Shown: positions 11,797-15,043 of the stretch, one piece after another
Layout of the letters: every line of letters begins with the position of its first letter
Numbering within the stretch: the stretch's first letter is position 1
Assembly: GCA_021800155.1 (NCBI GenBank)
Contig: JAJYZG010000006.1
Coordinates: 1-52,150, forward strand
Source: a bacterium
GTDB lineage: Bacteria; Patescibacteriota; Saccharimonadia; Saccharimonadales; UBA4665
Direction: 5' to 3'
Length of the DNA: 52,150 bases
The notes under the pieces: model-generated
What the model was told of the DNA's origin: nothing
The model's input: the letters and a program-made list of their open reading frames with translations, nothing else
Databases searched by the model: none
Translations under genes and position numbers: made by a program

Positions 11797-11923
11797 TGAC
11801 CATAACCGCATCATAAATCTCCTAGATAAATCCCGGCAGATTTATTAATGCGCATTTAAGAATAAGCTTTATACAAAGTTGAAGCATTGAATTTAAGCTA
11901 CCGTTTTAGCTTCAGATGTGTGT

Positions 11924-12127
11924 TACAATTTAAAATGACAAATCCGTTAAAAGCAGCTATCACCTGCAAATTGGATTGGGAAGAACCAGTATCCTATATG
12001 CTGTAGTAGAACCCGCCGGCGTGGGCCGAAACACCAACAATTAAGCGCTTTTGAGCTAACCTCAAAGGAAATCGGATGGTACCGTCCCAGATATCGAGGG
12101 ATTCCGACAAAACCTTTGAGGATTTTT
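11924..12127 (+). promoter_or_regulatory. T-box riboswitch (isoleucine) with ultrashort stem I, in front of ileS
   Basis: An extended -10 (TG-T-TACAAT, TACAAT at 11924-11929) starts the leader near 11936. Stem I is tiny: outer ATCC (11942-11945)/GGAT (11973-11976) and inner GCAG (11953-11956)/CTGC (11964-11967), with the isoleucine codon ATC (11959-11961) displayed in the 7-base terminal loop. The antiterminator has TCGGA, the 7-base bulge TGGTACC (12077-12083) that reads the tRNA NCCA end, TCCC/GGGA and TCCGA. A strong stem CCTCAAAGG (12060-12068)/CCTTTGAGG (12113-12121) is followed by TTTTT (12123-12127), an intrinsic terminator. CTTTTGAG (12048-12055) can instead pair with CTCAAAGG, a likely switch. 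It should let uncharged tRNA-Ile turn on ileS. Confidence 0.9.
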
Positions 12128-12142
12128 AATTAGGTAACGAAC

Positions 12143-15043
12143 ATGAAGTTTAAGCGAAACAGTCGCCGTGCGCCGATCGAGTACGAGAAGGATCTGGTTA
12201 AATACTGGAAAGAAAACCGTATTTTTGAGCGTTCGGTTGAAGAACGACCAAAGGATAATGCGTTTATATTTTATGACGGTCCGCCTTTTATTACCGGAGT
12301 TCCGCACCATGGCACACTACTATCAAGTATGGTTAAAGACGCGGTGCCTCGTTACTGGACAATGAAAGGCAAACGAGTTGAAAGAGTCTGGGGCTGGGAT
12401 TGCCACGGCTTACCGGCGGAAGTGTTTACCGAAAAGAAGCTTGGGATTAAGGATAAGCGTGATATTGGGACAAAAATCAGCCTGGAAGATTATATCCTGA
12501 CTTGTCGTGAGAACATGGTGGTTACTGGAAATGAATGGGAATCAACCATTGAGCGGATCGGACGTTGGGTAGACTTTAAGGGTGCATACCGGACGATGGA
12601 TAAGTCATATATGGAGTCAGTCTGGTGGGCTTTTAAGAAGCTATATGAACTAGGCAAGATATATGAGGGAGAAAAGGTTCTGCTGTACTGTATCCGCGAT
12701 GCTACTCCTATCGCCAAAGCTGAAGTTGCTCAAGACAACTCATATCAAGATGATACTGATCCGTCAGTTTATGTAAAACTTAAACTTAAGGATTTAGATG
12801 CGGCGTTGCTGGCGTGGACGACTACTCCTTGGACCTTGCCGGCCAACACTGCAGTTGCTGTAAATCCTGCCATTGATTACACCGAGGTTGAGTTAGATGG
12901 AGAGCATCTTATTTTGGCTACCGAGTTGCTAGATAAGGCACTAACTGACGAAAAACACCGGACGCTTAAGTATAAGAAGATTCGGCACTTTAGCGGATCG
13001 GAGTTAATTGGTAAAAGCTATGAACCGTTATTTGAAGATTTCGGGGGTAATGCGCATAAAGTTTGGGGGGCGGATTATGTTAGTGTTAACGAAGGGACGG
13101 GAGTGGTTCATTTAGCTCCCGCCTACGGTGAAGAAGATTATGATTTGGCCAAGGCGAACCATATACCGATCGTTAGCAACGTCGATGACTATGGCATATA
13201 TGAAAGCGGTCGCTTTAAGGGGCAACAGGTTTGGGAAGTAAACAAAGAAATTGCCAGGCAGCTTCATAAAGAAGGCAAAGTCTGGAAAATAGAGTTTATA
13301 ACTCACTCATACCCACACTGCCATCGTTGTGGTACCAAGCTTATTTACCGAGCTCACCCCAGTTGGTTTTTAAATGTGGCTGATCAGCGGGAGGAGATGC
13401 TAGAACTGAATAAAAATATTTATTGGTTTCCAGAACACATTAAAAACGGCCGTTTTGCTAAAACTGTTGCCAGCGCACCGGATTGGAATATTTCCCGGGA
13501 TCGTTTCTGGGCAACCGCTATGCCAGTATGGAAGGGTACTGACCGTGATGGCAATGAGCATATAAAGGTAGTTGGTAGTTACCAAGAGCTGAAAGATTTA
13601 TCCGGAGTTGAGCTGGAAGACTATCATCGTCCATGGATAGATGATATTACTTTTGTGATTGAAGGAGTTGAGTACAAACGGATCGATAAGGTACTTGATT
13701 GTTGGTTTGAAAGTGGCAGTATGCCGTTCGCTCAGTTTCATTACCCTTTTGAGAATCGCGAAAAGTTCGAACACGATTTTCCGGGCGACTTTATTGCTGA
13801 ATACGTCGGACAGGTCAGAGCGTGGTTTTATTATCTACATACTTTAAGTACCGGATTATTTAATACTCATGCGTTTAATAACGTCATAGTTACCGGTACG
13901 ATAGCCGGAAACGATGGTCGCAAAATGAGTAAAAGCTACGGTAACTATACTGACCCGAATGAACTGATGGATCGTTATAGTGCTGATGCACTTAGATTTT
14001 TACTACTGTCTTCTCCTTTGCTTAACGGTGAGGATTTCAACTTGATCGACAAAGACGTCGCCGATACTTTCCGTAAATTGGCGATGATCTGGAACGTTTA
14101 TGACTTTTTCAGTTTGTATGCCGATGTCGATGATTGGGAGTGGCAATCGGACCATTTGTCGGCTCCTAAGGTTGAACACATTCTTGATAGATGGATCATA
14201 GCTCGGTTGCATAAGCTAAATCGGTCAATCGATTCGCATATGCTAGTATATGACCTACCAGGCGTCCTCAAAGATGTACTGCCATTTATTGACGATACCT
14301 CCAATTGGTATGTCAGGTGTTCGCGTAAACGATTTTGGAAAAGCGAGAACGACGCGGACAAAAGTCAGGCTTATGCCACGCTGCACTATGTTCTTGGAGT
14401 ACTTGCAATATTGCTGGCACCATTCACGCCGTTCTTAAGTGAAGAACTCTACCGCTTGCTAACCGGAGAGGTTAGTGTGCATCTTATGTACTGGCCAGAG
14501 CCAGGTGATATTGATGATGATTTAATCTCGCAGATGGATTTTGTGCGACAAGTAATCAACGAAGGCTTAAGGCAGAGAGCCGAGGCAGGGATCAAGGTCA
14601 GGCAGCCGCTTGCTGCAGTTACGGTTTTCTCTGATAACCGCAAGCTTAATGGCGAACTGACAGCAATTATTGCCGAAGAGCTTAATGTCAAAGAGGTGAA
14701 TTTACGGTTTGCTACGCCGGGGAGATTGTTGGCAGCAATGGATTTACGTATTACGCCGGAACTAAAATGTGAAGGTATTGCCAGAGAAATAATTAGACAT
14801 GTCCAAAATGCACGCAAGAACGCGGGTCTTAACGTTGACGATAGAATCGATTTACAGCTTGGGGCTACCGGCAAAGAGGTTGCAGCAGCCTTTACCGACT
14901 CAAAGCTTGCAAAGCTTATAATGAGAGAAACTTTGGCTATGACGCTCAATGAAAGCGAGTTGGCTGATGCTTACGCAGAAACGGTCGCCATTGAAGGCGA
15001 AGAAATCGGGATTAAAATTAGGGTAGCACAGGCCAAAAGTTAG
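12143..15043 (+). CDS. ileS: Isoleucyl-tRNA synthetase (eukaryote-like, type 2)
   Basis: Charges tRNA-Ile. The 966-residue class I enzyme has the Rossmann fold with FYDGPPFITGVP, the CP1 editing region, KMSKS (594-598) and an anticodon-binding C-terminus. The pattern GxPHxG ... VPRYWTMKGKRV ... WDCHGLPAE matches the eukaryote-like IleRS group, which includes mupirocin-resistant bacterial enzymes, more than the E. coli group. The HIGH motif reads HHGT (55-58): the last His is Thr. No C-terminal zinc-finger module is seen. The gene is controlled by the T-box at 11924-12127. A weak AGG precedes the ATG. Confidence 0.96.
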   Translation: MKFKRNSRRAPIEYEKDLVKYWKENRIFERSVEERPKDNAFIFYDGPPFITGVPHHGTLLSSMVKDAVPRYWTMKGKRVERVWGWDCHGLPAEVFTEKKLGIKDKRDIGTKISLEDYILTCRENMVVTGNEWESTIERIGRWVDFKGAYRTMDKSYMESVWWAFKKLYELGKIYEGEKVLLYCIRDATPIAKAEVAQDNSYQDDTDPSVYVKLKLKDLDAALLAWTTTPWTLPANTAVAVNPAIDYTEVELDGEHLILATELLDKALTDEKHRTLKYKKIRHFSGSELIGKSYEPLFEDFGGNAHKVWGADYVSVNEGTGVVHLAPAYGEEDYDLAKANHIPIVSNVDDYGIYESGRFKGQQVWEVNKEIARQLHKEGKVWKIEFITHSYPHCHRCGTKLIYRAHPSWFLNVADQREEMLELNKNIYWFPEHIKNGRFAKTVASAPDWNISRDRFWATAMPVWKGTDRDGNEHIKVVGSYQELKDLSGVELEDYHRPWIDDITFVIEGVEYKRIDKVLDCWFESGSMPFAQFHYPFENREKFEHDFPGDFIAEYVGQVRAWFYYLHTLSTGLFNTHAFNNVIVTGTIAGNDGRKMSKSYGNYTDPNELMDRYSADALRFLLLSSPLLNGEDFNLIDKDVADTFRKLAMIWNVYDFFSLYADVDDWEWQSDHLSAPKVEHILDRWIIARLHKLNRSIDSHMLVYDLPGVLKDVLPFIDDTSNWYVRCSRKRFWKSENDADKSQAYATLHYVLGVLAILLAPFTPFLSEELYRLLTGEVSVHLMYWPEPGDIDDDLISQMDFVRQVINEGLRQRAEAGIKVRQPLAAVTVFSDNRKLNGELTAIIAEELNVKEVNLRFATPGRLLAAMDLRITPELKCEGIAREIIRHVQNARKNAGLNVDDRIDLQLGATGKEVAAAFTDSKLAKLIMRETLAMTLNESELADAYAETVAIEGEEIGIKIRVAQAKS

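Follow-up and report, generated by a model that had tools for sequence, protein, structure and literature searches.

The leader of ileS in a Candidatus Saccharibacteria genome raises the question of whether a T-box riboswitch with an ultrashort stem I can control transcription. T-boxes with a short stem I form Class III, exemplified by Nocardia farcinica ileS, and Classes III and IV mostly regulate translation (PMC10482949). Transcriptional T-boxes generally need a long stem I with an elbow-binding motif, and the terminators they use are built from the 3′ strands of A1 and A2 (PMC7583486). Structures of Class III ileS T-boxes (PDB 6UFM and 6UFG) are cited in PMC7583486. For the TBDB database, the class II model was run on Actinobacteria and on truncated-stem-I T-boxes that the class I model had already detected (PMC7778990). 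No paper on a T-box riboswitch in Patescibacteria or Saccharibacteria was found in a literature search that left most subscription journals and preprints uncovered.

The window, meaning the whole stretch of 52,150 nucleotides analysed here, is one contig of a 1.1-Mb genome in 68 contigs, estimated to be ~95% complete. Direct reading of the leader revealed a T-box layout at 11941-12127, 5′ of ileS. The features of the locus, with the evidence for each, are as follows.

11921-11929, + strand: extended -10 promoter-like element TGTTACAAT (sequence; recurrence in most genus relatives)
11941-11977, + strand: ultrashort stem I, AATCC/GGATT at 11941-11945/11973-11977 and GCAG/CTGC at 11953-11956/11964-11967 (sequence, covariation)
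11959-11961, + strand: specifier ATC (Ile) in the apical loop CTATCAC, 11957-11963 (invariant in 30 relatives; complements anticodon GAU)
11978-12014, + strand: stem II with S-turn-like strands GAAGAA, 11980-11985, and AGTAGA, 12005-12010 (conservation, covariation)
12017-12034, + strand: IIA/B pseudoknot, CGGC/GCCG at 12017-12020/12025-12028 and GTG/CAC at 12021-12023/12032-12034 (covariation alignment)
12043-12047, + strand: RRRxG motif AAGCG on the 5′ flank of stem III (sequence, conservation)
12048-12068, + strand: stem III, 12048-12055/12061-12068, followed by AA at 12069-12070, ON state (covariation; minimum free energy (MFE) fold of the RNA to 12111)
12060-12127, + strand: predicted enclosing terminator, 12060-12068/12113-12121, with U-tract TTTTT at 12123-12127, OFF state (energies, species-matched pairing, T-rich tail)
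12072-12107, + strand: antiterminator, A1 at 12072-12076/12103-12107 and A2 at 12084-12088/12098-12102 with a terminal G-U pair (covariation)
12077-12083, + strand: antiterminator bulge TGGTACC, 7 nt, of the form UGGNACC, between A1 and A2
12132-12134, + strand: probable Shine-Dalgarno AGG (sequence; 8 nt before the ATG and outside the terminator helix)
12143-15043, + strand: ileS, isoleucine--tRNA ligase, 966 aa (TIGR00392, 797.5 bits, above the cut-off)

A first-pass annotation of this DNA had listed the ATC in the stem I loop, the bulge, the terminator stem with five T and the alternative pairing, and all of these were found where it had placed them. It had also taken the downstream gene for ileS, in agreement with the TIGR00392 match, and the host for a member of Patescibacteria. 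The IleRS relatives in named genomes upheld this assignment and narrowed it to Candidatus Saccharibacteria (TM7), all being MAGs of that group, the closest 92% identical. Its statement that T-boxes with an ultrashort stem I had been described for actinobacterial ileS, where they are mostly translational, matches PMC10482949 and PMC7583486.

Comparative analysis confirmed, at the level of sequence, that the element is a genuine T-box riboswitch. A covariance model trained on 24 leaders, none of them from the window's genus, found 11939-12107 as its sole match in 52 kb (102.8 bits, E = 1.3e-25), and also recovered all 14 genus loci tested. The covariation that the first-pass annotation had looked to in ileS upstream regions of relatives was clear in an alignment of 30 diverse leaders, comprising 35 pairs in 8 helices. 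Here 93.2% of cells were paired, compared with 72.4% in shuffles, and both-side changes occurred in 30 of the 35 pairs, giving 231 double-change cells where shuffles gave 75. The covariation score of 0.576 (0.224 in shuffles) was reached by 0/500 shuffles, and the signal collapsed when partners were slid by one column.

Rfam scans at gathering and relaxed thresholds gave no T-box match at the locus. The search with the T-box model RF00230 that had been proposed at the outset thus failed although the element is real, because this model expects a long stem I. Its gathering threshold of 93 bits was not reached by the window copy, and Saccharibacteria relatives also stayed below it; RF00230 places related Saccharibacteria leaders at the same coordinates, as in one relative (G335:C10, E = 3.7e-10). 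Two weak RF00230 matches elsewhere in the source genome (E = 0.1-0.2) were taken as noise. The best weak Rfam match, a eukaryotic snoRNA model, was judged to be due to chance.

The individual aptamer parts were then compared across the 30 leaders. Upper stem I was 100% paired, with both-side changes at all four pairs, and the specifier ATC was invariant in 30/30. In stem II the strands GAAGAA and TAGA were nearly invariant and the helices covaried. Pairing in the pseudoknot was 92% for helix 4 and 64% for helix 5, the IIB half, which is poorly aligned there. The succession of RRRxG motif (defined in PMC7583486), stem III and AA that characterizes T-boxes was present and conserved, and stem III showed both-side changes in 7/7 aligned pairs. 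A1 was 100% and A2 95% paired, and both covaried.

The ligand was sought in the same genome. A strict tRNA-Ile sequence pattern had no match there; the gene was then located by RF00005 and ARAGORN, and has the anticodon GAT and an encoded 3′ ACCA. tRNA-Ile(GAU) is complementary to the specifier AUC, and its ACCA end to UGGU of the bulge, so that specifier (ATC), gene (ileS) and tRNA agree as expected of a T-box. The suggestion that the organism is tRNA-limited did not hold: the genome had 54 tRNA matches and thus no shortage of tRNAs. Ketol-acid reductoisomerase (PF01450), which isoleucine synthesis needs, was absent from this genome and from 91/92 relatives searched (1/93 family genomes positive). 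This suggests isoleucine auxotrophy of Saccharibacteria from gene content, and the switch would then read an amino acid obtained externally.

TGnTA(C/T)A(A/G)T-like elements occur at constant spacing, ~12 nt 5′ of stem I, in most genus relatives. Because the -10 element lies so close upstream, the leader would begin near it, and stem I would be truly ultrashort rather than the remnant of a longer arm. The 37-nt stem I with its apical specifier and no IDTM (the elbow-binding double T-loop) corresponds to Class III. A generic promoter scan did not call the extended -10-like element, because it recognised no -35. In several genus relatives a TACGCTAGCTC-like stretch precedes stem I by ~40 nt, the spacing of a -35; the copy in the window (11885-11911) departs from it.

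Folding of both states, as proposed with the first-pass annotation, bore out the two alternatives. For the nascent RNA to 12111, the MFE structure was stem III plus antiterminator (-17.9 kcal/mol, ON). At full length, the terminator with an intact antiterminator reached -24.4 kcal/mol, so that OFF was ahead by 6.5 (MFE -27.2). The default state would therefore be OFF, and read-through would need something that holds stem III and the antiterminator together. In the OFF fold, the 3′ side of the terminator takes over the 3′ strand of stem III and encloses the intact antiterminator; the terminator helix and stem III exclude each other. Among Saccharibacteria leaders that carry a U-tract, structure prediction likewise paired the strand just before this tract with the stem III region, and A1 was intact in nearly all.

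This pairing was assessed by an alignment-free permutation test, in which every leader's stem III region was matched either to the 3′ arm of the same leader or to those of other species. For 37 dereplicated Saccharibacteria, own arms gave -12.6 kcal/mol and permuted arms -7.65 kcal/mol (z = -12.3, 0/5000). Within the genus, both-side changes were seen in 4/9 pairs of the terminator helix, the lower three pairs being partly misaligned. A generic terminator scan found nothing, because it allowed only loops of 3-8. An insert of 44 nt that itself bears a hairpin may make the terminator weak.

Three other readings of these helices were weighed. The leader could be a translational T-box as in Actinobacteria, with an OFF fold that mainly blocks ribosome loading and an incidental T run. 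Ultrashort stem I T-boxes do act mostly on translation (PMC10482949, PMC7583486), and not all Saccharibacteria leaders have a U-tract as strictly defined: 89/100 do, and several of the remaining 11 have interrupted U-runs. However, the OFF helix includes neither the Shine-Dalgarno sequence nor the start codon, and at least 5 T within 8 nt followed 51/55 strong 3′ arms, compared with 1.5% of other G/C positions of the same stretches, a count anchored on the last G/C before the first TTTT and so biased in favour of this result. An initial test of T-richness after the 3′ arm had given the opposite result, because the A-rich 5′ side forms pairs with the U-tract, and was redone from the last G/C pair. 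We consider the translational reading improbable. The coupling to an intrinsic terminator proposed in the first-pass annotation was supported, an intrinsic-terminator-like platform and U-tract being conserved in most relatives.

Even less probable is that the 12060-12068/12113-12121 helix extends the antiterminator domain at its base in the ON state, with no terminator at all. Such a helix would be coaxial with A1 and would keep the antiterminator intact, but it excludes stem III, a helix that shows covariation of its own and is required for sensing of the tRNA 3′ end in characterised T-boxes (PMC7583486), and it runs into a U-tract. The published switching mechanism, in which, as in Firmicutes, the 3′ halves of A1/A2 make up the terminator (PMC7583486), can practically be set aside here, since the same 37 Saccharibacteria gave no signal for this pairing (z = -1.0, 785/5000) and the window holds no downstream complement to the A1/A2 3′ strands, although 44 leaders of other Patescibacteria did give one (z = -3.2, 4/5000). 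In those other Patescibacteria, the upstream pairing with the stem III region was nonetheless often stronger in single leaders.

We conclude that the leader is very probably a tRNA-Ile-sensing T-box that attenuates ileS transcription, as judged from its sequence. Sequence statistics establish the fold, the two exclusive helices, the fit to the organism's own tRNA-Ile and the matching gene; we infer that the RNA binds tRNA, senses its charging and brings about termination in the cell. In the proposed mechanism, the nascent RNA would first fold stem I, stem II, the pseudoknot, stem III and the antiterminator. Uncharged tRNA-Ile would be read by the ultrashort stem I and would stabilize stem III stacked with the antiterminator, leaving the terminator arm unpaired, and ileS would be transcribed. 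With tRNA-Ile charged or absent, the late strand 12113-12121 would displace the 5′ strand of stem III and pair with 12060-12068. The resulting long hairpin around the still-folded antiterminator, ending at the U-tract, would stop transcription.

Comparison with the Class III ileS T-boxes of Nocardia farcinica and Mycobacterium tuberculosis shows that both have a short stem I lacking the double T-loop that binds the tRNA elbow, an AUC specifier in the apical loop followed by A, an S-turn in stem II (here S-turn-like strands), a IIA/B pseudoknot, stem III purines, a UGGN bulge and ileS as target. The Saccharibacteria element differs in its coupling to an intrinsic terminator, whereas Class III is mostly translational, and in its host, Patescibacteria rather than Actinobacteria, where relatives also precede valS, aspS and probably lysS. 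Its apical loop has 7 nt between the last Watson-Crick pairs, compared with 5-6 nt, a non-canonical closing pair being possible. With canonical transcriptional T-boxes (RF00230; B. subtilis tyrS and glyQS) it shares A1, a 7-nt bulge and A2, a U-tract terminator, a synthetase target and a default OFF state. Unlike these, it lacks the long stem I, is missed by RF00230 in the window copy, and has a terminator that captures stem III instead of the A1/A2 3′ strands. The predicted aptamer is thus of the Class III ultrashort type with the putative behaviour of a transcriptional T-box, and the expression platform fits neither published description.

To investigate the occurrence of the element, all 93 family genomes were searched. 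An IleRS-query match was present in each, in some only a paralogue or fragment, and TGGTACC lay 40-160 nt before ileS in 52/70 upstream regions examined, usually with an ATCA-type loop further upstream. Our covariance model R1 matched in 72/93 family genomes, normally at one place each, and in 139/380 genomes sampled across Patescibacteria, some with two to four places. With the independent model RF00230, 132 of these 380 genomes had matches reaching E = 0.01, and 13 reached its cut-off; Patescibacteria T-boxes are thus visible to Rfam in few genomes, and the Saccharibacteria form stays below threshold.

Sixty R1 matches were fetched, nearly all outside the order. Downstream genes were identified by HMM for 20 proteins: 13 valS, 1 bacterial aspS, 4 non-discriminating aspS, 1 lysS and 1 ORF of no family. 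A loop finder blind to the gene returned GTC in 12/13 verified valS leaders. In 33 ileS leaders, the genes being assigned by similarity to the query, it returned ATC in 23 and GTC in none, and picked the wrong hairpin in 10. In non-discriminating aspS leaders it returned GAC in two and AAC in one; the codons of two further aspS leaders, and AAG of lysS, were read by eye. Across the phylum, the putative specifier codon tracks the downstream synthetase: AUC with ileS, GUC with valS, and GAC or AAC with aspS.

We favour, as a reasonably likely joint reading, a third T-box topology, in which an ultrashort-stem-I aptamer would act on transcription by stem III strand exchange with the antiterminator folded in both states, together with a phylum-wide Patescibacteria system with specificities for Ile, Val, Asp/Asn and perhaps Lys. 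The enclosing terminator and the phylum breadth go beyond the first-pass annotation. If true, this would contradict the view that transcriptional T-boxes need an elbow-binding long stem I; reviews hold that a long stem I is needed for tRNA capture to be fast enough in transcriptional T-boxes, short ones being mainly translational, and a whole bacterial class that combines an ultrashort stem I with terminators makes the claim directly testable. Stem III strand exchange would offer a simple route from 3′-end sensing to terminator control with the antiterminator unbroken. Standard annotation overlooks the Saccharibacteria T-box, which, in the literature searched, is among the first defined-ligand regulatory RNAs proposed for these mostly uncultured bacteria.

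Several further variants were observed. Related T-boxes in Patescibacteria (L183-L242) precede valS (GTC, motif TTAATGTCACC), aspS and, in one case, lysS. The bulge reads TGGC in 3/5 aspS leaders, which would suit a G discriminator base. Long canonical T-boxes seemingly occur in the phylum too, in the 13 genomes above the RF00230 cut-off (e.g. G284:C1:182572-182840), sometimes in the same genome as ultrashort ones. A divergent ileS type in the same family (43-46% identity, L067-L072) also has the T-box; several of its leaders without a clear terminator helix may be translational. Two genomes with a similar divergent ileS (G006 and G010) had no T-box match. At nine Saccharibacteria loci (L111, L118, L146, L150, L135, L109, L104, L131 and L119) 390-800 nt separate the T-box from ileS and contain an ORF, by eye resembling 3-methyladenine glycosylase, GNAT, CYTH, cupin, short-chain dehydrogenase or GDSL-type lipase, and the intervening gene may share isoleucine control.
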